This document shows, one piece after another, positions 17,691 through 56,597 of a stretch of DNA of 64,000 bases. The translations under genes and the position numbers were made by a program. The notes under the pieces were generated by a model. That model did not search any database and had not been told where the DNA came from. It was given only the letters and a program-made list of their open reading frames with translations. How positions within the stretch are numbered: the stretch's first letter is position 1; every line of letters begins with the position of its first letter. Origin of the DNA: Tribonema minus (Eukaryota > Sar > Xanthophyceae > Tribonematales > Tribonemataceae); the NCBI GenBank assembly GCA_017506865.1, contig JAFCMP010000113.1, positions 1,116,001 to 1,180,000 on the forward strand. The letters run 5' to 3'.

Positions 17691-20600
17691 TTAGCCCGTG
17701 GCGTCCGCTGCCGCCTGCTGCTGCCGCGCCAGAGCCGCGCCAGTCGTGGCAGCAGCAGCTGCGCCTGCAGCACTGCTCAGCGACTGGTCCCAGGCGGCCT
17801 TCACCGGCAGGCCGGGGGGAGGGGGGCTCCTCTGCGTGGGCCTGTCCTCGACCCACGCTACGGGGGCCCTGCCAGAGCTGGCGTCGAAGCCTGTAGCAGA
17901 GAAGGGGGGGGTTGCAATAGGTGTTGGTGACATGAGTGACTCGGCGTCATGGTCGGCAGCATGGCGAGCTAGCGGCAGTGGAAATAGCCGGCATGCGACA
18001 AGCAACGACATTATTCCAAGTATGACTCATGACTCATGAGTCAATACATGCCTACGACTGCACTGCTAGTCATTGTCAGGAGGCTTGGCACGCACTCTAT
18101 AAAGACATCCTGACCGTGTACTTCATGTAGAAGTACTGCTGCTCGACGAGCGGAAAAAGCTATGAAGATGTGCAACGCACGCGGGCCTGTGATCGTGCAA
18201 AGTGCGTACGGACTGTGTACTGCAAATGCACTGTACAGGTGTCATGCAGTACAGTACGTACCTTTGGCAGCGCTGGCGTCGTACGCCGCCTGCAGCACGC
18301 TGCCGCCGCCCTCCCCGCCTCCGCCGCCGCCGCTGCGCACCATCACCGGCGGCGGCACCGTCGCAGCAGCGCCGCCGCCGCCGCCACTCATAGCATCACC
18401 GGGCGCAGCGGCGCCACTGCTACCGCCGCCCACCGCACCGCCGCCACCGCCGCCACTATAGTCGAGGCGAAGCTGGCGGTTCAGGGCATCGGCGAGAGAA
18501 TCGGGGGCGTTTTCGGCCAGGGCGTCTGAGCGCTGCTGCAGAGGTTCGGCGGCGGCGGCGGCGGCGGCGGGCGGCACGGCGGCGGCGGCGGCGCTGTAGG
18601 CGTCGGGCTGCTCCGTGCCGACGAACGCGTGGCGGAAGTAGGGGGCGGCGGTCGCCGCAGGCATGCTGTGCCTGGCGCGGCAGCGGAGGGTAGGTATGCA
18701 TGAGCGGGTGTTGAGCGCTGTTGAGCATGACGTTGAAAACGGTGCGCGCTTCCAGAGGGCACGATAACGCCGACCCTAACCCTAACCGTAACCCTAGCGG
18801 CGCGCGCTGCGGCTTCACAGTAGCGTCAGTGCGGCTGCCTGTTGCGACCTTAGGGATGGGGCTGGGGGGTTGGTATACCCTAGGGGCTAGGGTTTGGACA
18901 ACACGTAGCGCGAGTACGAGCAGCAAATATAGTAAAATTTGAAGCTAGAACTTGAAGTTCAGTGATACTGCGGGGTAGGCGTAGCTACACCACGACTGCG
19001 ATAATAGCAACAAAACACCAAACATAAATCTAGCAGTATGTAGTGCAGTTCTAGTACGCGACAGTGTTCAAACGCACTCGTACCACCATGTGCTGGTATG
19101 GTGGCCTTAGAAGCTGAGCCGCGGGGCACCGCAGCTGAGCTGCTGCAACAGCAAGGCGACCAGCACACCGCTGAGCACTGCCGCGTGGTCCATACGTGCC
19201 GATACGGACATGCACTTCAGCTGCATGGTGCTACTATGGACCGCAAGTAGGTTGCGCTTGTGATCGCAAATTGCGTTTGCAGATGCCAAGACTGCGACTG
19301 TTCCCAAACCGTACGGGCGCGACACTGCACGCTCAAGCGCGCAAACCTCCCAGCAGTTTAAGTTCAATCACCAACAACTTCAAGCGCGAGTGATGCGCAC
19401 CTGCGCAAGTGGGTGGGCGTAGCCCTGTCGAGCCTGTCCTTTTCTTTTTTGTGCTGCACTTTGAGGCGCTTGTGGCCGATGTGGTAGCCGTTGAGCGCCT
19501 TGATGGCGTCCTCCGCGCTGGCGCGCGCGCTGTAACTGACGAAACCGAACCCGCGGCTGCGCCCCGTGGCCTTGTCGACCATGATGCGCGCCGATATCAC
19601 CTCCCCGTACTCGCAGAACAGCGAGTAGAGGTCGTTGTTGGTCATGTCGTTGGGGATGTGGAAGACAAAGAGGTTACAGCCCTCAGGGCCCTGCAGGTCC
19701 TTGGTGGTCTGGATGGGAGCTCCGGGGGTGATGACGGGGGCTGCCATGCCCGCGGCGGCGGCGGCGGCGCCTGCGTCGCGAGACATAATGTGCAGCGTGT
19801 TGGCGGCGTGATCTAGCAACTTTGATAAACATCTGCTTCAAGCGCAGAGCGTGTGTGTGTATGGCGGCGCCTCACATGGTTGTGTGGAGATGTGGTGCGG
19901 GCGCAGTGGCTGCATTGCGGCGGCGGCGGCGGCGGCGCCTGCGTCGCGAGACATGATGCGCAGCGTTTCAGCGTGTGTCAGTGAGTTGAGTGGAGATCTG
20001 GTTCGGCGCAGAGGGTGTGCATGTGTATGGTGGCGCCTGACGTGGTGTGTGTGGAGGTCTGGTGCAGGCGCAGTGGCTGTGTCGTCAGTGTGCGGCGTTG
20101 GCAGGCGGCAGCGCTGGCGGCAGCGTCGCGACGTGTCCAATATGAACTCAACGTGAGCGCAGATTGTTTGCGAACTGTCATCATAAAGGTCAGCCAGGTG
20201 TCAGGTGTCCAGTGCGACAACAAGCATTCCTATCGCATGATTGGCGGTCAAGCATTCCTATCACATGAACGGCAACGCGCGCCTAGACTGAGGCGTGTGG
20301 CAGATTTTTTTTTCCATCAGCATGAGCACAGGTTGCAAGCTGCGCTTGGAAGTAAATGAAATGAGGAGTGTCGATTGTAAACGACTTGAATGGTAATTGT
20401 AAATATCATGTATATAGATGTGTGTGTGGGTGAGAACAAGTCAGCACAACAGATGTAGCTGCTTCAACTCTAATTGCGAGCCAAGTGCTGGAGATCAGCA
20501 GAGGCACAAATTGCCGCCGTGCCAGTAGAGCGCTGCTGCGGAGCGACGAACCATACACATCATTCAAACCCGATCAATTGAAGCTAGAACTGAGCAGCGC

Positions 20601-25593: not shown

Positions 25594-25755
25594 CTGCAAC
25601 TTCAACACGATGCTGGGCCGTGATGCACCCCTTTCATGGGGCGCAGCCCATGGTGACACGTGCCAGACAGCTCAGATGCAATCCCAACTACGCACAACTT
25701 CCAAGCGCGCGTCTCATGATGATGACTGTAACTTCAACGGCATGGTGAAGCTCAC

Positions 25756-26161
25756 CAGCAGCGGACTGGTTCTTTCGGGCCGCCGCCACAATCTGCTCCG
25801 CCGTCTTCACTGCCAGCTCCTCGTGCGTAAACCCAGATGCCAGGGCGTCGCCGACCGTGACCGAGCCGTCGAAGCGCTGAATGTGCACGCAAAGGGCCTC
25901 GGCTGCTGCTTCGCCTGTGCGGTGAGCAGACAGGGCGACAGTGGCGCAAGCGGCAGGGGCAGAACGTGTCAGGATCAACACGCGCGCGCGCTCCAGCAGC
26001 AGCGGCAGCATATTGAGGGGACGCACCAGAGTTCACAAGCACATTGAGCCAGGCCTCAAAAGCTGCAGATGGCGTGCAACAGCACTGTTCAAGAGCGCGC
26101 AACACCAACAGCGCTTCATGTGTGTGAAGGCGGTACGCCAACGCTGCTGCTGCCGCTGCCT
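25756..26161 (-). CDS. Candidate exon pair, upstream copy of the duplication
   Basis: Same structure as the pair at 25188-25593: exons 26161-26027 and 25914-25756, with splice sites and phase preserved. Because all four exons are phase 1-1, a transcript could include both pairs and gain a 98-residue internal repeat without a frameshift. Confidence 0.45.
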
Positions 26162-26701
26162 CTGCAGCTTCAACACGATGCTGGGCCGTGATGCACCCCT
26201 TTTATGGGGCGCAGCCCATGGTGACACGTGCCAGACAGCTCAGATGCAATCCCAACTACGCACAACTTCCAAGCGCACAACATGGACAACAGTCCGACGC
26301 TTCACAACAGCATACTGTCCGCTCACGATGGGACCTGCTCTGCTTTGTGCTGCTGTGAAGTTGGTAATCACCACTGCTGATCACTCAGAGCTGGCGATAT
26401 TTGGTTTCTCAGATTGAACGAGGAAAACAAGTGTGCAAGCAAGTGCCAACTTCAAGGCACCCTGCATGACCTACCGACTGAACGTGACACACTGTGCTGC
26501 CGTGAAGTCAATGCATCACGAACTGCCGGTACTGCGTGGTGCTGCGCTGTCGCGGAGGTCTCGACAATCGGCGTATTACAGTATAGGCAGCTATCAGGCA
26601 AGCACACAGGGTTTGGCGATGGGCTCACGTGCTTATTGCGTCTGCTCATCGCAACTACCTGACAGGACAGACCCTCAAAGTTCAACTCGCATGGGATTTA
26701 C

Positions 26702-38039: not shown

Positions 38040-38512
38040 CGCCCCGCGCGTTCAGCGCTGAGCACGCGCGACCGCGGGGCCATCACTGCACATCGACACA
38101 TGCATACGTACCCTCAGCGACAATCGACGCCTCTTACGGGGCGCTTCGGCTCTCAGGGTCGGCGCGCCCACGCGGTGGGCGGCGATGGAGGGGCTGGAGA
38201 GCGCGCTGAGCACATGCAACTGCGAGGCCATCACTGCCCAGCGACGCATGCTCACGTGCCCCTGAACGATTGAAGTATCGATTGAGGTCACGACTGAGGT
38301 CTCACACGGCGCGCTTCGGTCCTCAGGCTCGGCGCGCGCCCGCGCGGGTGAGCGGCGATGGAGGGCCTGGAGAGCGCGCTGAGCACATGCAACCGCGATG
38401 CCATTGCTGCACAGCAACGCATGCCTACGCACGTACCCCCCATGACAATCAAGGCCTCGTACCGCGCGCTTCGGTTCCCAGGCTCGACGCGCCCCCGCGC
38501 GGGTGATTGGCG
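38040..38512 (+). repeat. Tandem copies of the phytochrome 5' leader and start codon
   Basis: The leader plus gcgatggagggcctggagag appears at 38183 and 38356 before the real copy at 38511; a fourth, older copy starts at about 38050. Each copy includes a cgcttcgg...caggctcgg-type block and the gagcacgtgcgaccgc-like segment. Spacing is 173 then 155 bases. The two upstream ATGs (38185 and 38358) open short frames that begin MEGLESALSTC, then diverge and stop. Confidence 0.85.
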
Positions 38513-41500
38513 ATGGAGGGCCTGGAGAGCGCGTTGAGCACGTGCGACCGCGAGCGCCTCCACGAGATCGGCGCCATACAGCGCATAGGCTGGCTCGTGG
38601 GGGTGGAGCTCAAGGAGGGGGGGTCGGGGCTGGGCATCGTGGCGCTGTCGGAGAACCTGGCGGACGTGCCGTGGATACTGCCCACGCAGGACTTGCGGGG
38701 GCTTGTGGGGAAGGACCTGCAGGAGCTGCTGGACAAGAACGCCGTGGTGACGGTGCAGCAGGTGAGGGGGGCAGTGCTCAGCGCGTGCAGAAAGGCTCAG
38801 CTCTGCATGGCAGTGCTCAGGTGATGTTGAAGGACCTGCAGGAGCTGCTGGACAAGAATGCCGTGGTGACGGTGCAGCAGGTGAGGGGCGGCGCTCTGCG
38901 CGCGCAGCACGGCTCAGCTTATGCGATGCAGCGCTCAGGTGACGCCTATGGATTACGATGGCACGTGAGGGGCGCAGCGCATGCAGCACGGCTCAGTGTG
39001 AGCGTGGCAGCGTGCCGTTAAAGCAGGGGCTGCTGGACCAGGCTGCGGTAGGAAGAGAGCGGCAAGTGAGAGAAATGCTTGTGGGTGGGTGGGTGGGTGG
39101 GTGGGTGGGGGGGGGAGCGCATTAGTTGATACAGCACAGCTCAGCAACTGCAGGGGTGCTGGACAACGACCCGTGATAACGGTGCGGAGGATGAAGGAGG
39201 CGCGTGAGGGGGAGGCCCATTACTCGAGGCAGCACGGCACAGCGCTTGCGGGACGGCAGTGCTCAGGTTAGGCAAGGGTGGCGCCGGACAAGACCGCCGC
39301 GTCGTTGGCGCAAAAGGAAATGGCTCAATTGTGAAACGACGTGGCGCAGGGGCCGCTTGCGAAAGCAGCGCTCAGGCGAGGCAGCGCTGGGCCTTGCTGC
39401 GTACTGGTAGACCTTCACCGGATGAAAACACTGTGGCGACGCTGCAGTAGAAGGCGGTGTAGTGTGCAGATACAGTGGCGCGCGCGGTGCTCAAGAGTGA
39501 GGCTCATTGTTGAAGTTGAAGAGTGGTGCCAGTAATGCAGCGCGGCGGAGCGCGGACGACGTGCGCAAGACAGCGCTCGGCAGCACAGCTCAGCGGGTCA
39601 TGCGTGACGGCAGATCAGGCGTGGGGAGGGGGGCAGTGCTCAGCTGAGGCAGCACGGCTCAGCAGCGAACGTAGGGTTAGGGTAAGGTCAGGGTTAGGGC
39701 TAGGGCTAGGGTCAGGCAGCGCTCTCATGCAGCGCTGCTCAGCGGATAACGTGCGACACTTCCAGCAGTGCTTGGTCGGAGCAGCGGGGCTCAACGCGTT
39801 ACTGCCGCGGTTCTATGGAAGCCGCTGCTTGGCCCATTCGACGCACAATAAGCTCTACAGCATGTCTATAGTATGCAGTGCCGGCAGCTGCGCAGCGCTG
39901 TACTGTTGAAGTGACGCATGCGCAGGTTCAAGTACAAGTAGTACAAGGACGCGACTCTTCTGCTGGCAGCACTGGAGCAATCGACAGCTCGCTGCATTCA
40001 CAATTCCTGTCACTGGCAGTGGCGGGCGGTCTCATGCTGCTTCATTTTTGTTGGCAATCATGGCCCTCTGATATAGTGCTCACGCCTGGTTGTCACCTGT
40101 CTGTTGGCAATTTTGACCCTTCAACTTTGCATGGCTACTGTCAAATTGTTGCTTTGGGATGGCGTGGCCTGATGCAGGAATGAAGTTGCAGTTGAAGTTG
40201 CTCAGCGCCAGCGGACAAATCATCACTAGGTTGCACATGCGACGTCAAAAGATGGCTTGTATTGGCTCTGCAGCACTGCATACGTTGTGCCATGAGACCT
40301 GATTATTTTGCACCCTCATTATTGATGTTCTGCAATGCTGCCCCTTCTCCCCCGCCCCTCCCCCATCTCCCTCTGTGGCCTTGACCTCAGCTCATCGATC
40401 GATCTCAAGTCTTCACACCGCAGCAGACTGACACCCCCCCCCCCCCCCCCCCTGCCCTCTACTGCAGCTCATCAAGCGCTTCCAAGTGTTTGCGCAGCAG
40501 CAGCAGGACGCGTCGCCGCGCGGCACACTCGACGAAGCGAGCCCCGCGGCGTGCGGCGCCAAGAGCTTTGGCGCGCTGCGCATGCTGTGCAAGGGCACGC
40601 CGCTGAGCGTCTGCGCGGATGGGACGTGGTCGCTGTGCTGCTCCGTGGTCGCCGCGAACGAGGGGGTGTTCTTGCTGGAGCTGGAGGACGCTCAGGTGAG
40701 ACACTTCTTTTGCGGGCTAGGGTAGGTACGTAATGTGCATTCACGAATTGGCGCAGGTAATTGAAAGCTGTGCTGCTCTGTGGTCGCCGATGAGGGGGTG
40801 TTCTTGCTGGAGCTGGAGGATGCTCAGTTACAGTGCATTTGCGCGCTAGAGTAGGTGTTTAGTTGTGAACTCGGGCTACTTAGTGGTGTGCATTCAGAAG
40901 TCAGTGTCGGGAGGTAATGTGGTCGCTGTGCTGCTCCGTGGTCGCCGCGAATGAGGGGGTCTTTCTGCTGGAGTTGGAAGATGCTCAGGTGGGGTGCATT
41001 TGCGACCTACATAGGGTAGGTTCGTAATGTGCTTTCACGAGTTGGCGCTGGCGGTGTACACGGCGACGTCGCTCAGAATTCAACCACCTTGCAGGAAGAC
41101 ACAAACTGCGTCGCTCTCTGCCATGCACCGCAGCAGTGCTCAGCGCTGTGCGGCTCGCTTGCCGCGGTGCTACGCCACTGCTATGCCGCTGCCACGAGCG
41201 GTCCATCGCGACGTGAACAATCAATGGCCTTGCAGGAACTTAGGGTTAGGGTATGGGTTCGCCATGCCACCACAGCTTCCTGTCTGCAGAGGTGCCCTTG
41301 CGCATCATCAACGACGCTGTCTGCGCTCACCCCCCGCGCCGCGCGCCATCTGCCATGCCACTGCCACGACCGCAGCGCTCCATCGCGACGTCAATACCCA
41401 ACGCCGACGTGCTGCTGTGCGGCGACATCATGGGGCGCGTGAGGGCTGGCACCAGCATACTCTCCACCGCGGCGGCGTTCTGCGACGCCGTCATGGACGT

Positions 41501-43559
41501 GCTGCCGCTGTACGACCGCGGCATGGTCTACAGGTGATTCATGTTCATGAACAGTCATGAATTCATGTTTGTTAATGTTCTGCGATGCCGTCATGGACGT
41601 ATTGCCGCTGTACGACCGCGGCATGGTGTACAGGTGACTCATGTTCATGAACGGTCATTAATTCATGTTCATTGATGTTCTTCGACGCCGTGGCCGTGTT
41701 GGACGCTCATGAATGGTCACGGTTCATGTCATGGTTTGTGAGTGGTCTTGGCATGGTCTACAGGTGATTCATGTTCATGGATGGATGGCCATGAATTCAT
41801 GTTCATTGATGTTCATGATTTCATGTTCATGAATGGCCATGAATGATGTGGGTGCGTCCTTGGTGTGGTCTGCAGGCGATGATTCCACGCACTTGTGCTG
41901 CTGTCGGCATGGGGCGCCATGACCTGGCATCCTCCTCTTGAATGAATTGACCGTCATGAATGAATTCACCGTCGTGATTGCGCGTTTTGATGGCACGTCA
42001 CAGCAATCAGTGTAGGGATGAGACGGCATTCAATACCTGCATGCTTGCTGTCAATACCTACCTAGGATTAGGACTAGGGTTAGGGTTAGGGGTGGGGCTA
42101 GCTATGAGAGGTGAACTGCTCGTGCTCCATGGCAACTGGCATCACCGCGCACTGCTCGCGTATGCGCAGCAGCCCATCAGCTGCATCACACTGAGGTTTC
42201 CTGAAGTTACATACGCACAACTTCAACTCTCTCACCCTGCTCAACGTGCCCCCCCCCCCCCCCCCCCCCACCCCTGTGCCAACAGGTTTAGAGATGACGT
42301 GGCAGGCGAGGTCATCTATGAAAAAATACGGGCGGGCACCATTGACAGTTCCTACGCAGGTCTACGATTCCCCGCCGGGGACATACCAGTGCCCGCGCGG
42401 CGGCTGTTCATGCTCAACGGGCTGCGGCTCATCCACGACACAAGCGGCGTGGACGCTGAGGCAAGATGACTTGCTTGTCAGCCTTTTGTACAGGAGTAGT
42501 ACATGCGTAGAAGCGAACCAGAAGATCGCAAAGCTCTAGGTGACAAGGTGTGTATATACGTACCGGTGCTTGCGCAGCGGCTGTTCATGCTCAACGGCCT
42601 GCGGCTCATTCACGACACAAGTGGCGTGGATGCTCAGGCAAGTTGACTTGCTTGTCAACCTCTGTACACAAGTAATACATACATACCGCGGTGCTTGCGC
42701 CGCGGCTGGTCATGCTCCACGGTCCGCGGCCCATTCAGGATGCCAACGGCTCGTATGCTGAGGCAAGTAAGTCAAGCAAGGGTCAGCATGTCGTAGAGGG
42801 TATGGTACGTGTGCATGCACATCCGTGTGGATGCACAGGCAAGTAAGTTGCTTGTCAGCCTTCTGTAAAGAGAATACAAAGTAGTACATCATACCGGTGC
42901 TTGCGCGGCGGCTGGTCATGCCTTACGAGCTGCGGCTCATTCACGACTCAAGCGGTGTGGATGCTCAGGCAAGTCAACTCGTCTTTTGGGCCGAGGGCAA
43001 GCGGGTCTAGAGGGTATATATGTATGTACATGCATACCTGCGTGCGTGAATGGTCAGGCTTACAGGCTCAGTCTCTTCACAGAGAATATCAAGACCATTC
43101 GATACTGAATACCCATGCCTCGAACGCTAAAAGCTTGCACACAGAAGTCTTTTTGATCACTGTGGATATGGTGGTACTGTTTGACTCGTGGCCAATTGCT
43201 GCAGCAGCGGCGACCACGGTTACTGGTCGAAGGCGCTTGCGGCTAACCATCCCTTGTCACCTAGAGCTCTACGTTCTTTTGATTCGTTTTCATCAAGTAA
43301 TTCATACATACCAGTGCTTGAGAGCGGCTGGTCATGCTCAATGGGCAGCGGCTCATTCACGACACCAGTGGCATGGACAAACAGGCAAGTGGATCTTGGG
43401 CCGATGCCAAGCGCGACAAGCCGGTGCGCCCACGTGCTGCAGAACACGACAGTACAGCGCAGTACAATGCAGTACACTGCATCTCCCGTACGCGCCCACA
43501 TGCCCGGTTCCTGTGTGCCATACACAGCTGTTGATATGGGTTTGCATGTAACATACACG

Positions 43560-43594
<35 letters not shown>

Positions 43595-46500
43595 GCGTTG
43601 TGACCCCACTGTTTTTTTGCCATTTGCCACTTGGGACACACCTCGCCATCGATTCATCTCCCTATATACTTGCTTAATGCTCGCGCACACCTCACCACCT
43701 TTACGTCTGCCTGCATACCTGCATGCCCCTGTGCGCGCAGGTCGTTGGGGCAGCGCTCAAGTCCGGCGAAAAACTGGACCTCTCCATGTGCAGCCTGCGC
43801 GCCGTGAGCAAGGTCCACGTGGCTTACCTGCGCAACATGGGCGTAACCGCCAGTATGAGCATCGCCATCGTCGTCAATGAGGAGCTGTGGGGGCTGTACG
43901 TCTTCCACTCGTACACGTCGCCCGTGTCGCCAAGCGTCGAGCAGCGCATCATGGTCGAGATGGTGAGATATTGAGCACTGCTGCAGCCGCTGCTGAAACG
44001 TAGCATACATGGGAACATACTCGTATACGTCGCCTGTGTCGCCGAGCGTCAAGCAGCGGACCTTGGTGGAGCTGTTCAGGCGCTGCGTGCTTGCCAGAGC
44101 TTGGTGATCGAGACACTTGCATTGGAATGCTATTGCGTGCACATGACACGAACATGTATGCTCCTTTATTTATAGCAGTGTGGCGCTGCACATTTGTGTT
44201 GAAGCTATGTAAGAGGAAGTTCGTGAGCCAATGTCAAGCACACGCTCCGAGCCTCGTGCGTGTTCGCGGCATGAGAGCACATATGTTAATCAGCACCTTC
44301 ATACTGCGCATCTCACTGGTCAGGGATGACTCACAGGTGTCATTGGTTGTATCACTGGCTTTTGTTGCGCAGCACAGGCCAACCTTGATGTCGAGTCCAA
44401 CGCATGGGTCGCATCACTGGCTTTTGTTGCGCAGCCCAAGGCCAACCTTGATGTCTACTCCAACCCCCCCCCCACCCCCCCCCCCCCCAACTGCGCTCAC
44501 CTCCTACTTCCCCCTTTCCCCTCCGCATTTAACCAGGTGGCATCAATCAGCGCAGTGCGCATCGACGGCTTCATCCGCGAGCAGTACGTGCAGCGCAAGC
44601 TCAACCTCATGTCGGCGCTTGGCGCGCTGGCGGAGAGCCCCAGCATCTTTGCCTTCTTTGACTCGTACGCCCCCGCGCTGCTGGCAGTGCTCGACATTGA
44701 CGCCATTGTCGTGTGCGAGGGCAACGACATATCTGCCAGGTGACTGAGAGTTTTGACCAGCATCGGTTGAACTGTGCGCAAAGCGTTGGCGTGGAGTGCG
44801 TCCATGTACAGTTGTGTACTCTGTGTGTGCTGCGCTGCTGGCAGTGCTGCACATTGACGCCATTGTCATGTGCGAGGCAACGACACTTCTGCCAGATGAT
44901 CGATAGATTTCTCTTGTTGTTTACAAGTGTCTGTTGAACTGTGCAAGAGCGCTGGCGGTGACAGCTTGAGTGCGTTTGTGTACAGTTGTGTACTCTGTAT
45001 GTACTGCGCTGCTGGCAGTGCTTCGAGGCCATGGTCGTGTGCGAGGGCAACGACATTTCTGCCAGGCAACTGTTGTTTTGCACCCCTGACTGTCTCTGTT
45101 GAATCGTGTCTGCGGAAGGGCGCTGGCAGGCTAGGTGGCGATGAAGGTTGTGGGAGCGCAATCATGTACAGTCGTGTACTCTGTGTACAGTCGAGTACCC
45201 TAAAACGCTCCCAGCTATGAGACAACTGCAAGGTGATCTTCGCGGCAGATACGTAAAAACCTAGATGCCTGACACCTGCACGATTGAAACATTCACCACC
45301 TGTTGATCCCCACACCCTCCCCCCCCCTTCCCGTCTCGTTGGTAGCTATGGCGACAAGACCATAGCGCCCAGCGCGTGGGGGCTGCGCAATCTCAACACC
45401 CGCTTGCAGCAGCGCTCAACAAACACTTACAGCAGCGCTCATCAACCACCTTTGCCCCCCCCACCCCTCTGTCTCACTGCATCTTGGCCCCATCCCTACC
45501 TTGCCATCTTGTCAACAGCTACAGCGACAATACCATAGCGCCCAGCGCGCGGGGGCTGTGCAAACTCGGCAACCGCTTGCAGCAGCGCCCCACAACCGCC
45601 TTCCGTCCCCCCCTGTCTCACCCCATCCTGCCCCCTACCTCGCGTTCCTCGCAGCTACGGCGACAAGACCATAGCGCCCAGTGCGTGGGGGCTGCGCGAG
45701 CTCAACAAGCGCTGCGGCGCGGAGCAAGTCCTCCTGCTGTCCGCCTTCAGCAGTGGCCTCAACGGCGACGGCGCCGGCGTCGCCTTCCTCAAGATGAAGC
45801 GATTACAGCTGGCGCTCGTGCGCGCGAGCCACCGGCACGACGTAAAGTGGGGCGGCAATCCGGATGTCGCGAAACTGCCTTTTCTGGATGGGCAGCTGCA
45901 GCCGCGGCGGTCCTTTGAGATGTACCTCGAGAAGGGGCGCATGGAGTCCAAGGTACAACTTCGATGTTGTAGTTGAACATGTAGTGGGAGGTGTTGGGCT
46001 ACTCCATGATTGCAGCAGGAAGGCATGAGGGTAGTAAATGAGAGTTGAATTGGATGACGAAGCTGCCGTTTCTGGATGGGCAGCTGCAGCCGCGGCGGTC
46101 TGTCGAGATGTACCTCGAGAAGGGGCGGATGGAGTCCAAGGTACAATTTTGATGTGGAACGTGGTAGAAGTAGTTGAAGGATGGAGTCCGAGAACTACTT
46201 GCCTGGAATTGCAAAATGCGAGTGGAAATTGCCACTTGAACATTCAAGTTGGACGGCGACTTCGCATGTTTGAGACATGCTTGAAGGACCAAGGTTACGA
46301 TTGAGGTTGAGTTGGGGTGAAGGTGGAGATTTGCCCAGCAGCGCAGTGCCATTTTCGCGATTCACACTGTCTGGCGTGTAGCTTTGATCAACTAACCCTA
46401 GCCGTGGGCACTCTTCAGTGCTTTGTCATGGTTACATAGCTTCAATTGTGGTCCTTGACACGGGCCTGTATGTCACATAGTGCTGAGTGCGAGAACGTGA

Positions 46501-49500
46501 CTTCAGCTTCGAACGTAGTGTCGCATGAAAAAGCTACTCCGGAGCATACTGTTGGTGATCTACGTTGATCAGAGCCACCCTATATGAGAAACAGTGGCGT
46601 CGATCATGAAGGCGCCGCTGACTTTCACGACGACCTTTCAGGGTCGATGAAGGGCACGTGGCGTGATTAAAGAAGTGTGATAACATTTCAGCGAGGTGAT
46701 TACGGTCACGTTGGGCTAATAACAGCATTGAGGTCATGGTCATTTTGGTTATCATGCATAATTTTTTTTGTGTCATGCTGGTGATGCTCAACAGGCGTGG
46801 AGCGCTGCCGACAGCGAGGTCATCACGGTGATGTTTGACTACTGCCGCGACTTCCTGCACGCGGAGATGCTGCGGTCGTTTGAGCTCTCGCTCGAGCGCA
46901 GCAACCACGAGTGCATGGAGAGCCACAAGGCGGCGCAGGAGAACTACGAGTACTTTGCGCACATGAGCCACGAGCTGCGGTGAGTGCGTGAATGATTGTG
47001 AACATTCATGATCGTGAACATGCATCATGAACATGATCATGAATCTATGAATAGAGCATGGAGAGCCACAAGGCGGCGCAGGAGAATTACAAGTACTTTG
47101 CGCACATGAGCCACGAGCTGCAGTGAGTGCATGAATGATTGTGGACGTTCATGATGAACATGATAATGTGAAGAGAGCATGGAGATTCACAAGGCGGCGC
47201 AGGAGAACTATGAGTACTTTGCGCACATGAGCCATGCGCTGCGACGAGTGCACGCAAATGTTCATGATCGTTGACATGATTGATCGTGAACAATGTACAT
47301 GCATGATGAACATGATAATGTTTTGTGAACAGTGCGTGCATGGCCACAAGGTGGCGCAGGCGAACAACGAGCACTTGGCGCACATGAGCCATGAGCTGCG
47401 GTGAGGGCACGCCAATGTTCATGATCGTGAACATTACTGATCGTGAACAATGTACATGCATGATGAACATGCTAATGGATTTGTGAACAATGTTCATGAT
47501 CGTGAAGATTTATGTAAACGCCGCCTGTGGTCAACAAGCATGTGCTTGATTGCAGCCGCCCCAGCTGTCTGGTCATGCCGCATGGCACAATGTAGGTAGC
47601 AATCGGGAGTTTGATTTGACATTTATCAGCCCCTTCCTCTGTATCACACACATCAGTCAGCCTTTTTTGCTGCGGTTCAACATCTCCGACAACACCTGAC
47701 CACGGCTGCACTTGCCATCGTGTTTGATGCGCTCGTGTCCTTACTCCCCCCCCCCCTCCCCAATTGCCACATCCCCCGCCCCCCCAGGACCCCCTTCCAC
47801 GGCGTCATGGGGTCCCTGCAGCTGCTGCTCGACGCCTCCGACAAGCTCAACACGGCGGAGTGCCGCGACATCGTCACGGGCGCGCTCGACTGCGGCGACG
47901 CCCTCCTGCGCACCCTCAACGACATCCTCGCGGTGGCAAAAAACAAGTACAAGATGGCACTTTCCATGGAGGCGTTCAGCACGGCCGCCATGCTCTCCGA
48001 CGCGTATAGTGTAATGAAGCCCTTTGCCATGCAGAAGGGGATCCGCCTCAGCATTCGCGCGCGGGGGCGCGGCGACGCTTCGGCGGCGGCGGCGCCGGAA
48101 CCGGCGGAACCGGGGGCGGCGGTGCGCGCGGAGCGGCCGCTGCTGGACATTGCGACGTGCGGCCGCACGCACGTCGTTGGCGACCTCCAAGTCTGCATGC
48201 AGGCAAGTATAGCATATTGTTTTCTTGTGTGCGTACCGCACTTTTGCACCCCCCCTCTTTGTTTGCAAGCGCGCCAGTGGCGGTCGGGCTGAGCTGACGC
48301 TGGGGTCGGTGGTGAAGCTGTTGATGTTCACACCTCGGTGAGCGCTAAGTTTGGGGGCGGTGCACTGTTGCGATGCGCGCGTGGCAGCAGCTGCTGACAC
48401 GACGGATAAGGTCAAAGTTGAAGCTTACAGGCGCCGTTGTCAGCGTCGATCTCATGCTCGCCTTGCTGATGCGGCTCATGGCATACCTGCGTACCCTAGC
48501 GTTTGCGCCAAGAGGTTATTTTGTTGAGCTTTGCGTCAGCGCCAAAGCGAGACCGTGTCCACCTGTGGATGCAGCATTGCAGTTGGCAAACACTGTCGCC
48601 ATGACCATCAAATGCGGCACGGCAGCATATAACACCTGTGCTCTTCTCCACGAGCGGATGGACACATGTGATGCGTGCGCGCCCCCCCTTGTTCCCCCTG
48701 CCCCCCCCCCCCCCCCCCCCCCCCCTCAGGTGGTGCAAAATCTGCTCAACAACGCCATCAAGTTCACGCCCAACGGCGGGAGCGTAACGGCCTGCATGCG
48801 CGACGTCACGACGTTTGACGAGGCGTGCAACAGGTACGTATGCGTGCCGAATGTTGATGCGTGCGCGTAACCCTATGCCCAGGTCTAGCGGCTCTGCACA
48901 GCCGCCAGTGTACTCATCTGCGACACATGGCAGGGGCAAAAATTGCTAGGGTTAGGGCTAGGGTCAGGTGCAGCAAGGCCTACTGCCTTCGTATCTGCTT
49001 TGGGATCGAAGTAGGACTACTAGAAAAGCCTACAAGAGGGTAGCCTTCAACAGGGTTGCAGGAGTACGGTTGCATGCCATGTGATCATACAAGTATTTGC
49101 TTTGGGATCGAAGTAGGACTACTAGAAAAGCCTACAAGAGGGTAGCCTTCAACAGGGTTGCAGGAGTACGGTTGCATGCCATGCCATGTGATCATACAAG
49201 CAATGAAAACCATCTCATTCTTGTGGGCAGGTACTGAGCCAACACGAATGGCCTGACTGTGCCAGCAAGCGTGCACTGACTGCCAACGTCAACGTGCATA
49301 CTTTAACTGCATTTGATGAGAACGCTAAACACTTTGAAAAGGATGAAGCAGCAGACCATCAGGGTGCGAATGTGTCTGTTGTAAAGTTTTGCTACACCTG
49401 GTAACTCATATCTGCATTCCCCTCAAAGCTATGTAATTCTAGCTCTGGTAACGCCAGCTCTACGCAGACTCTACTCAACCCGCGCTGCTACGCACACTGG

Positions 49501-52500
49501 CCAGCTATCTTTAACATGCACCATGTGCTGTGTACTGATGACACAGGTGCATGCTCGCCTGTCGATGCTGACATGCACCGCGCGCAGAGGGACTGACAAT
49601 ACATGGCGTGAGCGGACCGAGCGCTTTGGTGGACCAGTGTGCAACCCATGCCGACGCTGACGTACGAATGCCTCCGCTGCAGCTTTTGTCAACTGCAACC
49701 TCAGCAACACATGTGTGCCGAGGCAGCAGTAGGTGCCACCAGACATCCGGGTCAGCGTTAGGGCTAGGGTTAGGGTTAATAATCACTCACTCACTCACTC
49801 ACACCGTTACGTGCACTGCACACTGCGGAACCCAATGACAGATGGCGCGAGTGCGCCAAGCGGTTTGACCACAGCTACTGGGCGCAGGCTGAGGGCGAGG
49901 TGCCAACGCCGCCGCACTCATGGACAACACAGCAGTGCGCATCCGCGCTGTGGTACTGCCTCGAGGTGGAGGACACGGGGCCCGGCGTGGGCAGCCACGA
50001 CGACTTGGTTGACATGCTCAAGTGAGTCGTGAGTCGTGAGTTGTAAGCGTCAGTTGTAGCATCGTCGCCACGTCTATAGAAGTGAGCAATACTGCTAGAG
50101 CACATAGGTGAGTGGTAATTATGAGTGAGCTTGGGGCACTCTTGGTGGCAGGAGCTGTGAATTTGCTGACGTCATGCACCATGTACCGGACTTTTGTCAC
50201 AGCGCAAAGCTGCCACGTGCGCGTGGTCAGCCGCATACTGCTTTAATCATTCGCAGGGCTGAGTGAGGGTTAGGGTCAGGGTTAGCAGACCTCTAGTTAG
50301 GGTCGGAGAGAGTCAGGAGAGCGTTTCAGCTGGCCAGGAGTGCAATAACCTTAACTACATTGGCTGTGCTCAACTGCGAGCCGAACACTAACCCTAATTC
50401 TACCCCCAACCCTAACTCATGGCAACGCCACCGTAGATGACTGTTACAGTCGTGAGTAGAGTAGGATTTGGCTTTGCGGTCACGGGTTACCCTAACCCTA
50501 ACCCTAACCCTAACCCTAATCCTTACCCAAATGTCAGGCAGGTGGCACAAGCACGTGCCATCACCGCCACCGCCTTTTAAGCACCACAACATCGGTCCAT
50601 GCACTGCCTGGCTTAGCGCTTGGATTAGGGTTACGAGCTCGCGTTGCGCAGGTAGGCGTTAGTATGCTGCAACCTACTGCACTTCAAACGCACGCCAGGT
50701 ACGTGATGACACGACCATTGCAATACTGTATCACGGCGCATGGCCGCCGCCGCCGCCATCAACTTTGCGAGGCATCACCACCCCCCAGACCATACCATCA
50801 GCTGTAATCGGGGGTAATCCTAACCTAACTCTAACCCTAACCCTACCCCTATCCCAGGCCATACCACCAGCTGTCGTCGGGGGTAACCCTAATTTCACCC
50901 TCACCCTAACCCCACTAAGCATAAATTCAATTCAACCCCAACCCTAACGCAGGCCATACCATCAGCTGTCATCGGGGGTCTCCAAGACACATCAGGGGAC
51001 GGGACTGGGCCTCCACATCTGCCTGTCGCATGCCAAGAAGCACGGCGGCGCTCTCGGCGTGGCGTCGTCTGCCGGCAAGGGCACGCTGTTCTACTTCGCC
51101 GTGCCGCTGCTGCCAGTTCAGGTGAGCACACACGTGTTGTTGCTGCTTGGCGATGTTGTTCAGAAGTGATTGTCGATGTGTATCGAGACACTGTAAAGGT
51201 GTTCACGAGATACATGTGAGTTCTGGTACAAGCTGGACATCCACCATCCGTTGTTTTCTGCGTACTACGTAAGCGAGAACCAATAAACAGGTACTTTCGA
51301 AGTTCTTGCAACCCAGCATACTAGATGCTTCAGTACATATACTGGGGCACTGGGTGGAGCAGCACATGGAGCTTTGTAACAGTTGGTGCTCATGCTGAGA
51401 AGTGATTGTACTCGTGTACCGTCTTGTCGATAATTAAGGTCACTGGACGGCTTTTCTGTTTCCGCGTAAAAAGGGGGGGTGGACGTGCTTTTTGCGGAGC
51501 TAATTAAAAGGGGTGGATGCATTTCAAGAAGACTACACAGATCGACTTCTATGCACTTCGTTCTTCTTCATAATTGATTCGCGCTCGCGCGTCGCCGCAC
51601 AACCAACGCGGCAGAAAAACGTTTCGTCCCTCGCCAGTTTTTCAGGGTCCGCGTGCACCTGTGTGTGTCCAAAAGTGCTGGGGGCCTCCATAGAGCAGAG
51701 GTCGAAGCTGAAAAGGAGCGCCTAATGTGTTTCAAGCCAGTCCCGCAGCAACGTACAGCAGCACCGCATGGCCCAGCTCCAGCACGACCAAGTTCAGCTT
51801 TGCTTCGACAGAGTGAACTTCGTCGTGAACATAGTAATCGGTACTGGTGCACACAAAGAGGGGTGAACATCTTATTGCTGAAGCAATAAAATAAAGGGGT
51901 GAACATCTTTTTGGTGAAGCAATTAAAAGGGTGTCCTATGCTGGCGTTAAAACTAACAAAAAAGCCGTCCAGTGACCTTAATTATCAACAAGACGGTATA
52001 CACTAGACACTGGCAGGGCTGCTTTCGCGCCGTAAGCGCGATTGATTGGTACTCTGAAGAAGTATACACAGCATACCAGATGCTTCAGTACATATGCTGA
52101 GGAACTGGGTGCGGCTGTGGCGACAAAGCCATATCGGTTGTTTGGTGTCAGGCGCAGCACACGGGCTTTGCGACAGGCGATGCACACGCTGAGAAGCGGT
52201 TTCACATGAGTACATGACACCAGATATTGGCAGGGCTGTTGTGACCGAGTAGTGTTGTACCATAGAGGTGGTGTATTGTTTTGTGTGACAGCAGCATCAG
52301 CTTTGTGCCAATACGTGCTCACACAAACAAACATAGCTGTTTAGCTGGTGTGGCATCCCTACCTAACCTAACCCTGAGGCTTGGCTTTGCCCGAAGGCTA
52401 CCCTAAGGCTTCGCGTCGAGGGTCAGTATGCGGCCGATTGTAACCCTTGTGTTCCATGCTATCAAACTGCCTCTCTATGCCACTGCTGACAGTTCAGGTG

Positions 52501-55500
52501 CTGTGTGGAACTCGCATAGGGCCGATGCCTAATGTAGGGTCGACACCTACAGCAAGGAAGACACCTTAGCAGAGTTTTATGTTCGAGTGGCAAGTGAAAG
52601 CAGTTGGCGTTTGTTTACATCATTCTTGCTGACAGTGCTGCTGCAGAACCATTCGAGTGGCAAGTGAAAGCAGTTGGCTTTTACATCATTCTTGCTGACA
52701 GTGCTGCTGCAGAACCACATCGAATGCAGCCACCCTAGCGCCGACAAAAACCACCAGAGCAGACATATTGTGCATACTTAGCATTCGTTCGCACCCAGAG
52801 CGTTTGGCTCCGAACCTCGACGACGTGCTTGCTGTGTCTTGCTGCCATGCACAGCAGCACCGGTATTGTGCCCCCGACAGAGAAAAGCCACCATCGTTTG
52901 CGGCCGTTGTTATTTTCAACTTCAACACCGCTCTTCTCAGATCATCAACTTCAACACCGCTCCTCTCAGATCATCCATTTATTTCAGAGATGGCGCGTAG
53001 TGCCATCTCTGCACTGGTCGCGCGCAGCGCGAGAAGTTTTTGACAAGTACGCGTACGAGTACTTTCAAACGTGGTAGCTGTGGCTACCCGTACAAGTTTA
53101 ACTGGTACGCTGTGCCAACCGGTACCCGTATACTTGTTGCACCGGTTATTACTGGTTCAACAAGTTTTCACCAGCTGCACCAGTCATTTGGAAGGACTAC
53201 CAGTATTCATGTCTTGCAAACGTCAGAGTATGCTCATGTACTCACTCATATGCTGGCCTGTGTATGAAGGCTGCAAGATGGGCACGCATTCGCACGCGAA
53301 TGTCACAAAGTGTAATCTGCCTGATATGCAGAGAGTGCGCCACACATGTCACAGCAGCAGCATGCCAGCACGGCTCGTCCTCTACAAATGACTCACGAAG
53401 TGATCCCATCAAGCTGAGAACCGCGTGCTGCAGCTGCTTGCTGTCGACACCTGTGTTATTATGTAGGCAGCCGAGCGTGCGTGCGTCGCTTCACATAGTT
53501 TCACGAACTCTTACCTTGCCCTGCTCAAGCTAGAAGGCATTTTCGAGCTGCTGAACCCTCTGAAGTGGCAAACATCGCTCGTGCCATCGGTCGCTACTAC
53601 CAGTTGGTTGCAACTGTCGATGTTCCCTCGGCAAAACTCCGATCACCGACAGAATAAAGCGGAACAGGCATTTAACTTGTACCGCAAATTATCAGCTGCG
53701 GGACCGATGGGTGTTCACGCGTTGCCCCCACGGCAAGTTACACGCACCGGTTAACGCGTGCGGCGCAGTGGGCCACTGGTTACGGGTTAAAACCGGTACA
53801 AAAACTTGTACTTGTACCGGTGCAACAAGTGAACGCGCCATCTCCGATATTTCTACCCCTGAGCCTCTCCGCACCTGCCAAACCCTAACCCTAACCCTGC
53901 TTCACCGCTGCCGCCGACCGATGCTGCAGGGGAACTTGGAAGGCGGCCGCACCGGCACGCCTAGCGGCTCATTATCAGAGTCGCGGCAAGGCGTGCTCCG
54001 AAGACTGAGCGGAGCCACCAACGGCATGCACGGTGCCAATGGCACCGGCGACACGCTGCCGGATCTGGGCGTGAAGAATCCGACGGTGTTCATTGTGGAC
54101 GACAGCAGAATAAACGTCAGGCTGTGCGAGCGGAAGCTCGCGCTCGTGCTCGGCGAAGGCGTAAGGTGGGCAAATGTAGCAACTTGAACTTGAAGTTGAA
54201 CTTGTGCTAGCTCTCATCCTACTGAGGGGCGTGAAGCATGATGACATCGCATGGCTTTGTACTCCGTGCAAGGGATTGGTGCTGTCTGTAGCTGGCATCT
54301 ATGCACCTTCAACGTAAATGCCTGCTCAGCGCAGTGGTGTGTGAAACTTCTATTGCGAATGGGTGGTCAAGAAGTCGTAGAGACATGTATCCCACACGGC
54401 CTTCTTTCAGAACACCAGCGGGGGGGTAAGGCCACATGCATGGCTAGTCACGACATCGCCTTCTGTAACAGGTTCTGCAGGTGGGACTTAGTAGAGTTAG
54501 GGATAGGCGTCAGCAACAGCAATGCTGTGTACGTGCTACAGTCTGCGACGGCAGCGGATTGTATGGGACAAATTTAAGTCCACCGCACGCGCACGCACGG
54601 GACTCCACGGCACGTGCCAATCCGTCAATGAGAGGATTGGATACGAGAACCACGCTATATCATGTTTCAATGTGAGAGCGTTACAGAGCAGCACGCCTGG
54701 TAGTGTCGGCACGGCGTGCCAAGCTCAAGCACAACGTATGGCAGCGACTCACAGATAACCTAGACCTTGCCCTTGAAGAGTGTGGTGGCTGTCGCGCTGC
54801 ATTACATAATGCTTTTAAGTCCAAGATTTAGCAACTCCAAATATATTGCTGTCGCCTTGCCAGACTGGAGTACAAGCCGTACGAGTCTACTCATGCTACC
54901 ATGCATAAATCATCGCGTGAACACCATATTGAACTACAGCTGCATCCCTCAGCCTGATCCCTGCAAAAATGCTGTACATGGTGACTGTATGGCTAGACAG
55001 GACATACATGCCTCGAATGCGATAGAGCTTGTACACAGAAGTCTTTTGACTACTGTGGATATGATGGCACTGTTTGATTCGTGGCCAATGACTGCAGCAG
55101 CGGCGACCACAGTTATTGGTGGAAGGCACTTGCGGCTAACCATCCCTTGTCACCCAGACCTCTACGATATTTTGATTCGTTTTTATACATAACGTCCTTT
55201 TCTTCATCCCGCGTGCGCCGCAGATTTCTGTCGGCCATGGATGGTGACCAAGCCGTGAGCAAGTATGAGCAGATCCTGGAGGCAGGGGAGCCGGTGCTGC
55301 ACGCCATACTGGTGCGTGCGCTTACTCGGGTTAGGGTTAGGACTAGGTGCTGCACACCATACTGGAACGCGCGCTTACTGGGGTTAGGGTGAGGGTTGGG
55401 GTAAGGGTTAGGGCTGTGTTCAGGGTTAGGATTAGGGTTAGGGTCCGGCTTCCCTTCATTCTCATTCTCATCATGGCGGACTTGTTTGGTTTCACCCCAC

Positions 55501-56597
55501 GTATGTGCTGTCGGGTCTGCATGTGAGGATGCCATGTGGATACAGCACCTACTGTTTGTGAGCCATCGCAGGAGCACACCGCCTGACGTGAATGATGATC
55601 TGGCAAGTCAACTCTTGATGTTCGCAGTTGCAAGACCAAGCAGTTGCGTTGTCACCTTTGGTGGACTGTGCTCACGACCCCGACTCTACTCCGCAGAGCT
55701 GGCACCCATCACTCTACGCCTCAGGCTCTCAGACTCTGCGGAGCGTTGACACCCTCCAAATGACTCCAACCGCTTGCACGTCGGAGTTGGAGTCGCACGA
55801 TGACTTTGAGTATGGGCTGAGCACTCTCTGTAACTCTAATCTGACCGTCGTCTTAATCCTGACTTTGATCCTGGCGCAAACCCCCATCGTGCAGATGGAC
55901 TATCACATGCCGCGAATGAGCGGCAAGGATGCCATACTGAGAATACGCGCCGTGGAAAAGGAGCGGGGGCGGCCAAATGTACCCATCGCCGCGTACACAG
56001 CAGGTGAGCTACAAGTCGCCCTGGTGTAGCTCTAAGCCTAATGTTAGGGTTTGATGTGACCCTCCGCAACCAAGGAGGCGTTGGCTGTGCTGTATTTCCT
56101 GCCCCAGTGCTAGGGTTACATGTGACGACATGTGTGTTATGCAAGCAGTGTTTTGGCCTGTCAGCAGTGGTCACATTGGCGGAGTTGCCGATCAGTTGCA
56201 AACAGCAGTCACAGGAGAGAGCAGGGCCAGAGCCCTAGCTGCGCGTTGGCAATGATGCTGTACGATCAGCCTGGCATATAATAGTGTGGGTTCCGTCAGT
56301 GTTTGTACCAGACATCATACCTTCCAGCACACGCCGTGCTGCCCTGAGATGTTGCTGGGGTCATGTGTAATTGCCGCATCTCTGCTCACCTTAATAGGCG
56401 CAACGACACATTGCAGCGCATGGCCTGAATGCCATCTGTGTACCGCAAACCTGTGCGCGCGCGCCGCAGACCTATCGGATGTGTCCAAGGCAGTGCTGCT
56501 CAACGCCGGCGCCAGCGTCGTGATACCCAAGCCTACCCCCGCGGGCCTGCTGGAGACCACCATACAGCAGATGGTGGGACAGTTTGCGCAGCCATGA
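38513..56597 (+). CDS. Biliverdin-type phytochrome hybrid histidine kinase (PAS-GAF-PHY-HisKA-HATPase-REC), 16 exons
   Basis: Exons: 38513-38761, 40468-40695, 41292-41533, 42286-42460, 43741-43962, 44537-44739, 45655-45952, 46795-46979, 47788-48202, 48730-48833, 49875-50021, 50953-51121, 53930-54165, 55224-55311, 55895-56003, 56470-56597; all phases agree, giving about 1,065 residues. PAS: STCDRERLHEIGAIQRIG, with Cys11 in the bacteriophytochrome chromophore position. GAF: YDRGMVYRFRDD, FPAGDIP, then LRAVSKVHVAYLRNMGV, which has valine where plant phytochromes carry their bilin cysteine. PHY tongue: WGGNP and QPRRSFEMY. Kinase: H-box MSHELRTPFHG (His about 598), N-box QNLLNNAIKFT, G1 VEDTGPGV, G2 QGTGLGL. 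Receiver: VFIVDDSRINV, phospho-acceptor Asp989 in LMDYHMP, and the conserved lysine in VIPKP. It should sense red/far-red light and signal by His-Asp phosphorelay. Introns 4 and 9 use GC donors. Diatom and brown-algal phytochromes share this architecture. Confidence 0.93.
38711..38880 (+). repeat. Echo of phytochrome exon 1's 3' edge and donor (2 copies)
   Basis: The end of exon 1, aaggacctgcaggagctgct through gtgcagcag|gtgagg, is repeated 118 bases later with one or two changes and an intact GTGAGG donor at about 38881. Confidence 0.9.
39672..39714 (+). repeat. Degenerate telomere-type tract in phytochrome intron 1
   Basis: A run of TTAGGG, TCAGGG and CTAGGG variants; about seven units. Confidence 0.7.
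40628..40990 (+). repeat. Echoes of phytochrome exon 2's 3' edge (3 copies)
   Basis: The block ctgtgctgctccgtggtcgc ... ctggaggacgctcag of the real exon (ending 40695) recurs at 40768-40829 and 40923-40988. The third copy keeps a GT donor; the second has lost it (ctcagttac). Confidence 0.9.
41130..41225 (+). repeat. Partial echo of phytochrome exon 3's 5' half
   Basis: cgctgccacgagcggtccat with cgcgacgtgaacaatcaa here mirrors ccactgccacgaccgcagcg with cgcgacgtcaatacccaa inside the real exon at about 41355-41402. A telomere-type piece (ttagggttaggg) sits between the two copies at about 41239. Confidence 0.6.
41467..41885 (+). repeat. Echoes of phytochrome exon 3's 3' edge (4 copies, decaying)
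   Basis: ttctgcgacgccgtcatgga through catggtctacag|gtgattc at the real edge (41533) is repeated at 41577-41640, then more weakly at about 41680-41775 and 41845-41880. Copies share a trailing (ttcatg/attcat)-rich spacer. Confidence 0.85.
42379..43400 (+). repeat. Echoes of phytochrome exon 4's 3' edge with GC donor (5 copies)
   Basis: The block ctgttcatgctcaacgggct with cggctcatccacgacac and the end ag|gcaag is present at the real edge (42460) and again ending near 42640, 42763, 42968 and 43385. All five keep the GC donor form ag|gcaag; several extensions read gcaagt, a better match to the GC-donor consensus than the real edge. Confidence 0.88.
43085..43300 (+). repeat. Dispersed repeat element, copy 3 (about 200 bp)
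   Basis: Nearly the same as 54990-55195: catgcctcgaacgctaaaag, then cacacagaagtctttttga, then ctgcagcagcggcgaccacg and cttgcggctaaccatccctt, ending near ttttgattcgtttt. No protein is encoded. A short fragment (copy 2) lies at 42515-42550. Confidence 0.8.
43556..43597 (+). repeat. (CG)n/(CA)n dinucleotide microsatellite
   Basis: About six CG units run into about fourteen CA units, in phytochrome intron 4. Confidence 0.9.
43910..44085 (+). repeat. Echo of phytochrome exon 5's 3' edge (2 copies)
   Basis: tcgtacacgtcgcccgtgtc with gccaagcgtcgagcagcg in the exon is repeated at about 44020-44085 as tcgtatacgtcgcctgtgtc with gccgagcgtcaagcagcg. The donor is not preserved in the copy. Confidence 0.8.
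44680..45070 (+). repeat. Echoes of phytochrome exon 6's 3' edge (3 copies)
   Basis: gctgctggcagtgctcgaca ... gcaacgacatatctgccag at the real edge (44739) recurs ending at about 44895 and 45066. The later copies have lost the GT donor (ccagatg, ccaggca). Confidence 0.88.
45338..45720 (+). repeat. Echoes of phytochrome exon 7's 5' edge and acceptor (3 copies)
   Basis: ag|ctatggcgacaagaccatag at about 45344 and ag|ctacagcgacaataccatag at about 45520 precede the real ag|ctacggcgacaagaccatag at 45655. Each copy keeps a pyrimidine-rich acceptor. Confidence 0.9.
45855..46150 (+). repeat. Echo of phytochrome exon 7's 3' edge (2 copies)
   Basis: aaactgccttttctggatgg through gagtccaag|gtacaa (real edge 45952) is repeated about 188 bases later with an intact GTACAA donor at about 46141. 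Confidence 0.9.
46905..47405 (+). repeat. Echoes of phytochrome exon 8's 3' edge encoding the kinase H-box (4 copies)
   Basis: gcatggagagccacaaggcg through cacatgagccacgagctgcg|gtgagt is present at 46913-46981, 47056-47125, 47177-47244 and about 47338-47404. Reading them in frame gives MSHELR, MSHELQ, MSHALR and MSHELR. Spacers are (ttcatgatcgtgaaca)-rich. Confidence 0.9.
48946..48966 (+). repeat. Short telomere-type tract
   Basis: ctagggttagggctagggtc in phytochrome intron 10. Confidence 0.7.
48992..49200 (+). repeat. Near-perfect tandem duplication, about 100 bp
   Basis: tgctttgggatcgaagtagg through catgtgatcatacaag occurs twice back to back with almost no change. It is intronic and non-coding. 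Confidence 0.92.
50488..50520 (-). repeat. Telomere-type tract (CCCTAA)n
   Basis: Five clean units in phytochrome intron 11; more degenerate tracts lie nearby at 50264-50284, 50388-50418, 50818-50848 and 50884-50950. Confidence 0.9.
50781..50980 (+). repeat. Echoes of phytochrome exon 12's acceptor and start, alternating with telomere-type DNA (3 copies)
   Basis: ag|accataccatcagctgtaat at 50789, ag|gccataccaccagctgtcgt at 50858 and the real ag|gccataccatcagctgtcat at 50953. Between them are taacctaactctaaccctaa and taaccctaatttcaccctca stretches. Confidence 0.9.
51290..52205. mobile_element. Probable non-autonomous DNA element with long inverted repeats, in phytochrome intron 12
   Basis: Inner inverted repeat: about 51419-51462 (gtaccgtcttgtcgataatt ... 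tcactggacggctttt) against about 51962-52003 (aaaagccgtccagtgacctt ... caagacggtatac). Outside it, a direct repeat: catactagatgcttcagtac at 51318 and cataccagatgcttcagtac at 52072. The interior has no domain. Confidence 0.6.
52480..52505 (+). repeat. Degenerate echo of phytochrome exon 12's 3' edge
   Basis: gccactgctgacagttcag|gtg resembles the real gccgctgctgccagttcag|gtg at 51121. It stands alone 1.4 kb downstream, beyond the inverted-repeat element. Confidence 0.5.
52978..53862. mobile_element. Probable DNA transposon remnant with terminal inverted repeats, in phytochrome intron 12
   Basis: The left end atttcagagatggcgcg (about 52981) is matched in reverse complement by cgcgccatctccgatat (about 53836). 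Further inside, acttgttgcaccggt at about 53132 is matched by accggtgcaacaagt at about 53817. The length is about 885 bases. There is no intact transposase; short open frames exist but carry no recognisable domain. Confidence 0.6.
54990..55195 (+). repeat. Dispersed repeat element, copy 4 (about 200 bp)
   Basis: Same element as 43085-43300: catgcctcgaatgcgataga, cacagaagtcttttgactac, gcagcagcggcgaccacag and cttgcggctaaccatccctt. It ends 29 bases before exon 14 of the phytochrome. Confidence 0.8.
55285..55445 (+). repeat. Echo of phytochrome exon 14's 3' edge with telomere-type spacers
   Basis: gtgctgcacgccatactg|gtgcg (real edge 55311) is followed by gggttagggttaggac, then gtgctgcacaccatactgga, then a second and longer TTAGGG-variant tract at 55380-55442. 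Confidence 0.85.

Follow-up and report, generated by a model that had tools for sequence, protein, structure and literature searches.

Recurrent short tandem duplications across splice junctions in phytochrome and kinesin genes of Tribonema minus

Gao and Lynch 2009 is reportedly the reference cited for intron gain by tandem duplication. In potato RdRp, one tandem duplication across an intron-exon boundary is described by Ma, Lan and Niu 2016 (PMC4974935). Short tandem duplications are also attributed, as summarized in PMC8355091, to Pol alpha-primase filling the complementary 3' overhangs of staggered breaks, which are then joined, and telomere-like repeats are presented as break-repair insertions in primates and rodents (PMC7215372). 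A first-pass annotation of the locus studied here had reported that the edges of many phytochrome exons recur in the neighbouring introns (echoes) and had held that no described mechanism gives such a pattern; with fill-in repair duplication (PMC8355091) and boundary duplication in potato (PMC4974935) both outlined in these sources, that statement was too strong. A limited search of the open-access literature by title or abstract found no report of recurrent junction-anchored arrays.

The window, meaning the whole 64,000-nucleotide stretch analysed here, comes from an assembly of the yellow-green alga Tribonema minus, a xanthophyte, with 158 Mb in 554 contigs. Its phytochrome gene (PHY) was rebuilt as 16 exons encoding a histidine kinase-response regulator of 1048 aa (Table 1). 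The introns are all GT-AG save for GC donors after exons 4 (42461) and 9 (48203); two GC-AG introns are therefore found within this single gene, and the GC donor is kept in 4/4 aligned exon 4 echoes. The top database match, Tribonema minus protein P0001 (1151 aa), spans the whole query and carries several echo peptides in tandem, such as a second LKDLQELLDKNAVVTVQQ. Judging by these peptides, some PHY echoes are apparently annotated as exons in P0001.

To score echoes, edge segments no longer than 130 bp were compared with the adjacent intron, and introns of other genes served as the null; 0.18% of 2197 cross-gene comparisons pass the threshold. Edge copies were present in the adjacent intron at 9/15 PHY donors (exons 1-8 and 14) and at 3/15 acceptors (exons 3, 7 and 12). 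The calibrated threshold recovered the same nine donors that the first-pass annotation had listed, together with its acceptors of exons 7 and 12, and added the exon 3 acceptor. In the alignments the echoes are arranged head-to-tail, each unit enclosing the splice site; they lie side by side in the same orientation with a unit equal to the period, as in short head-to-tail tandem duplication. The best-matching copy lies at an offset of 53-190 bp from PHY donors, and the reported separation of exon 4 copies by up to about 420 bp was confirmed. The start-codon region of exon 1 is duplicated as well, which would involve one edge of coding sequence (CDS) unless a 5'-UTR intron ends there. The upstream duplicate, at 38185, encodes an identical first eleven residues, MEGLESALSTC.

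Table 1. Coordinates of the PHY gene model and of edge duplications in the window.
Feature	Coordinates	Strand	Remark
PHY gene	38513..56597	+	gene model and full-length match to Tribonema minus protein
PHY exons 1-8	38513-38761, 40468-40695, 41376-41533, 42286-42460, 43741-43962, 44537-44739, 45655-45952, 46795-46979	+	
PHY exons 9-16	47788-48202, 48730-48833, 49842-50021, 50953-51121, 53930-54165, 55224-55311, 55895-56003, 56470-56597	+	
Exon 1 start-codon region, duplicated	38055..38563	+	38055-38234 vs 38376-38563
Exon 1 donor edge and first echo	38710..38942	+	period 119; another echo at about 39143-39201
Exon 2 donor edge and two echoes	40617..41051	+	echoes 40767-40856, 40910-41029
Exon 3 acceptor edge, upstream echo	41144..41224	+	absent from first-pass annotation
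Exon 3 donor edge and echo	41477..41691	+	period 100; further copies, more decayed, as far as about 41835
Exon 4 donor edge (GC) and four echoes	42381..43398	+	echoes 42558-42674, 42681-42802, 42890-42992, 43306-43398
Exon 5 donor edge and echo	43907..44079	+	echo 44019-44079
Exon 6 donor edge and echoes	44675..45108	+	echoes 44832-44944, 45006-45108
Exon 7 upstream echo and true acceptor edge	45293..45713	+	
Exon 7 donor edge and echo	45862..46180	+	echo 46058-46180
Exon 8 donor edge and three echoes	46909..47492	+	echoes 47053-47159, 47173-47291, 47331-47448
Exon 12 two upstream echoes and true acceptor edge	50784..50979	+	
Exon 14 donor edge and echo	55293..55394	+	period 53
Kinesin exon, acceptor-edge echo array	4263..4628	-	period about 91
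Kinesin gene, donor-edge duplication	5572..5947	-	period about 196-202
RRM exon 5' edge, echo	19702..20131	-	offset 175

Echoes were also present, as claimed earlier, in the window kinesin and the RRM gene, and the claim that the intronless FAD, NSUN5 and beta-sandwich genes are free of them agrees with the edges tested, as no echo was found at the start and stop edges of FAD and NSUN5 or at the stop edge of the beta-sandwich gene. Stretches outside the PHY gene, such as that between 10 and 17 kb of the window, hold almost no local copies. Two further repeats lie elsewhere in the window: a 568-bp tandem duplication at 25133-26276, 99.5% identical and linked to no identified exon edge, and, at 33024-33531 upstream of FAD, a unit of roughly 180-190 bp that is present three times, has no evident coding part and lies away from any identifiable exon edge.

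Kinesin genes provided a sample across the genome. A Pfam kinesin search gave 132 exon matches, from which 20 regions were taken, and splice sites were set by profile continuity, blind to repeats, using pairs with profile gaps of at most 12. Of 33 introns resolved, 28 from 15 genes were retained; those scoring below 9 were dropped (L048, the third of L049 and the first of L055 and of L056), and one L045 entry lying inside an echo was merged. Echoes were found at 9/28 donors and 7/28 acceptors against a null of 0.18%, in 7/15 genes, with L058 alone supplying 7 of the 16. Among homology-free coding-like donors, a set that includes some sites that are not true donors, 21/65 exceeded a looser threshold and 15/65 a strong one. 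The whole sample comprises 43 introns of 16 genes; junction echoes in T. minus are not confined to PHY and occur at about a third of the borders examined. The observation that exon middles are not copied was upheld: no PHY exon window starting at least 75 bp from the edge scored above 17 against the intron, and kinesin exon windows gave 1/24 matches at 75 bp and 1/25 at 100 bp from the donor, with none further in or at acceptors. No tandem array with a period of at least 25 was found inside kinesin HMM exons.

Best-copy offsets are mostly 90-200 bp at donors and 95-339 bp at acceptors. The exon part of the echo covers 19-112 bp at donors and 21-83 bp at acceptors, and the intron part of the unit is at least 34 bp where the copy adjoins; we make no claim that units are centred on the junction, as the test mixed adjacent with distant copies. 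Every echo aligns to its own exon edge, the best of the 2197 cross-gene comparisons scoring 31.3. With a looser threshold (null 1.3%), the nearest copies were less diverged than the farthest (0.095 vs 0.152, p=0.0096, 19 arrays; pairs 50 vs 21, 2 ties), a gradient that would follow from insertion of each new unit beside the exon, and kinesin introns with echoes were longer (medians 854 vs 591 bp, p=0.03). Together with the junction families and the echo counts, the longer introns bear out the earlier proposal that duplication across junctions recurs and lengthens introns.

Substitutions in donor echoes amount to 0.101, 0.110 and 0.170 at codon positions 1, 2 and 3, and to 0.183 in the intron part. 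The ratio near one-to-two between codon positions is as expected with a drifting intron copy and a constrained exon copy, and the copies decay near-neutrally; by these sequence comparisons, intron copies would decay at about the neutral rate beside constrained exons. Many copies keep the splice dinucleotide, as had been noted (27/37 donor and 17/21 acceptor echoes), at roughly the level that 10% per-site divergence would leave. The suggestion that echoes are working extra splice sites found no support, the copies decaying about neutrally. Selection for the echoes as extra exons or as decoy or backup splice sites is very unlikely in our assessment. The several echo peptides in P0001 would suit it, as would the count of in-frame stops in donor echoes (1 vs 5.3 expected, P=0.03), a figure on which we do not lean; however, frameshifting indels are present in 13/38 donor-echo exon parts, the codon-position pattern suits a neutral copy beside a constrained exon, and there are paralogues without the echoes.

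These paralogues also date the events. PHY introns 4 and 8 are common to paralogues L001 and L002. At intron 4, the window gene has donor echoes, L001 lacks a donor echo yet has a strong one at the acceptor, and L002 has no echo at the one edge examined (the acceptor). At intron 8, echoes are present in the window gene and absent at the L001 donor edge and at both L002 edges. Likewise, kinesin introns near profile positions 95 and 289 are common to several paralogues, with or without echoes. Common introns whose echoes differ among paralogues indicate that the events postdate the introns and are independent, and thus do not represent intron birth; the duplications recurred after the paralogues had diverged. 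The birth of introns from tandem duplication of an AGGT-containing exon segment, an established model as presented in PMC3443670, is therefore hardly credible here, even though one array family covers an entire intron from donor to acceptor (L045 3523-4460). We had considered intron gain as a candidate and rejected it, as it calls for an intron that was absent before, and these introns predate their echoes. Phytochrome-like paralogues L003-L007 differ from the window gene in appearing intron-poor or intronless in the stretches examined.

The first-pass annotation had also proposed a process tied to splice junctions. Against this stands a possible and more ordinary account, which we consider a serious one, in which tandem duplication is uniform and has no junction bias: exon events are purged, intron-only events blur faster and junction-spanning events survive visibly. 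The near absence of exon-interior copies fits this account, which also predicts the constrained exon parts and decaying intron parts that were found, and young intron-only arrays do occur in PHY introns 10 and 12. In 36.9 kb of intron we counted 27 junction-touching families (one at both ends counted twice) and 8 intron-only families, a junction fraction of 27/35=0.77; kinesins alone have 16 and 4. A first simulation, with one uniform, length-weighted event per intron, placed 228/800 events at junctions (0.285). The large excess that this implied was rejected as too generous, because nested events fuse into families that reach a junction more readily. With 1, 2, 3 or 4 events per intron the simulated junction fraction is 0.46, 0.52, 0.61 or 0.64, and the kinesin count of 16/20 has P = 0.002, 0.009, 0.07 or 0.11, in introns that were equally weighted and shortened, which also raises the fraction; the fractions reached at three or four events favour uniform duplication.

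A matched simulation placed 82 nested uniform events in the same 27 introns with repeats, using the same detectors and keeping exons intact, in 120 replicates. Event numbers were estimated from the copies detected, a procedure that may favour junctions, and the 20 exon bases demanded here give 27 echo junctions where 28 are counted elsewhere. Junctions with echoes numbered 19.4±3.0 in simulation vs 27 observed, exon-derived copies 33.5±5.0 vs 58, and intron-only families 17.0±3.0 vs 8; on each of these, 0/120 replicates were as extreme, which argues against uniform duplication. Junction family ends numbered 20.5±2.9 vs 27 observed, with 2/120 replicates as high, and the simulated junction fraction reached at most 0.706 vs the 0.77 observed. 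Uniform duplication is also at odds with the 24/28 kinesin introns that have no intron-only family, and with the 16/21 echo introns in which an intron repeat is still detectable once exon-derived sequence is masked. TRF detected four arrays that the BLAST count had overlooked, namely three short intron-only ones in PHY intron 12 and the junction array of exon 14; adding these TRF-only arrays gives a fraction of 28/39=0.72. Under strict TRF settings, 5 arrays lay at junctions and 7 were intron-only, of which three overlapped junction arrays. The youngest class is too small to decide. We also considered, as a conjecture, that selection may keep junction arrays from collapsing.

Relative to the matched simulation, junctions with echoes are about 1.4-fold and copies about 1.7-fold in excess, so that much of the pattern can be attributed to random duplication and purifying selection on exons. 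The earlier proposal therefore stands in part: an excess over the matched uniform simulation remains but is modest, and much of what had been ascribed to a junction-bound process is explicable by random duplication and selection. The data support a junction bias of roughly 1.5-2-fold on a small sample, a result that depends on the model.

A bias of this kind could arise if exonic DNA itself were prone to duplication by composition or chromatin, with interior events lethal and splicing playing no part. Junction units extend 19-112 bp into exons, intron-only families are scarce and the PHY start edge is duplicated, all in keeping with such a reading; however, it predicts echoes past stop codons, and these were seen at 0/6 stops, with 1/12 starts, in a small sample. 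Three families start 46-70 bp inside the intron, and the lack of arrays with a period of at least 25 in kinesin HMM exons also weighs against it, although such arrays would be purged there anyway. Overall, 1/18 CDS ends in a hand-picked set (12 starts, 6 stops) have an echo, the one being the PHY start, vs 28/86 splice edges in PHY and the kinesins (Fisher p=0.02). The difference is not significant when the splice edges are compared with the 8 kinesin starts only (p=0.10) or when kinesin splice edges alone (16/56) enter the CDS-end comparison (p=0.18). A coding-potential scan had yielded just 4 stop sites, for several kinesins the start codon could not be chosen with certainty, and the set excludes L041, L044 and L045; the PHY start duplication was counted from a separate comparison, and its row in the CDS-end test covered the upstream copy. 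We regard a duplication-prone exon as an improbable explanation.

Taken together, our best explanation, held tentatively, is recurrent short tandem duplication straddling junctions, tolerated as the coding sequence stays intact, with a modest bias toward splice edges. The duplicated unit, mostly 90-200 bp long, would comprise about 20-110 exon bases and an intron part of no fewer than about 34 bases. Such an event would leave the coding sequence unharmed while the intron gains one unit, and would be tolerated because the coding sequence stays intact, exon-interior events being purged. The true exon edge would remain constrained while the added copy drifts neutrally, and repeated events would shift older copies inward, so that introns lengthen from their edges. 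For the excess at junctions we suggest that staggered breaks may form near splice edges and be repaired by fill-in and end joining; break repair there as the cause of the excess is something we infer only. Telomere-like (TTAGGG)n repeats, possibly scars of break repair, occur at 29 loci in the 36.9 kb of introns, favouring transcript orientation 20 vs 9, and none was found in 18.8 kb of kinesin HMM exons. PHY introns have 15 in 15 kb (six in one intron) vs 1 in 23 kb of two other window stretches. Their link to echoes is loose, since their density is only slightly higher in echo introns (0.90 vs 0.63 per kb).

In a bolder form, which we think unlikely, splice junctions would be mutational hotspots where splicing or exon-edge chromatin causes staggered breaks and repeated junction duplication, with conveyor-like intron growth from both edges spreading candidate splice sites and proto-exons genome-wide. 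If recurrent splice-edge duplication did hold across the genome, intron length would be tied to it, and T. minus would offer a test case for intron lengthening and the origin of new exons. A mutational origin of the junction bias would implicate splicing or the chromatin of exons in damaging DNA. For annotation, the practical point is that such copies can distort gene models, as the echo peptides in the database phytochrome illustrate.

Among known systems, as far as the cited sources present them, the potato RdRp duplication (PMC4974935) likewise crosses a junction that already existed and duplicates its splice signals; it was one event yielding a new intron, whereas in T. minus many recurrent events affect old introns, at donors and at acceptors, and nothing suggests that a new one arose. 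The intron-gain model outlined for Drosophila (PMC2891723) likewise derives intron sequence and splice sites from short pieces of gene DNA duplicated in tandem, but acts on exonic AGGT and makes introns, whereas in T. minus existing introns are lengthened by units straddling the junction. In Lipomyces, the donor duplication in stwintron formation is attributed to asymmetric break repair (PMC7138796); these duplications of 4-7 nt help to form a nested intron, whereas the T. minus units of 90-200 bp occur in series. When CST-Pol alpha fills in staggered breaks (Schimmel et al. 2021, PMC8355091), short head-to-tail duplications also result, a match in the form of the product alone; the insertions described in human are <100 bp, below most T. 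minus units, and splice junctions go unmentioned in the abstract and introduction of that paper.
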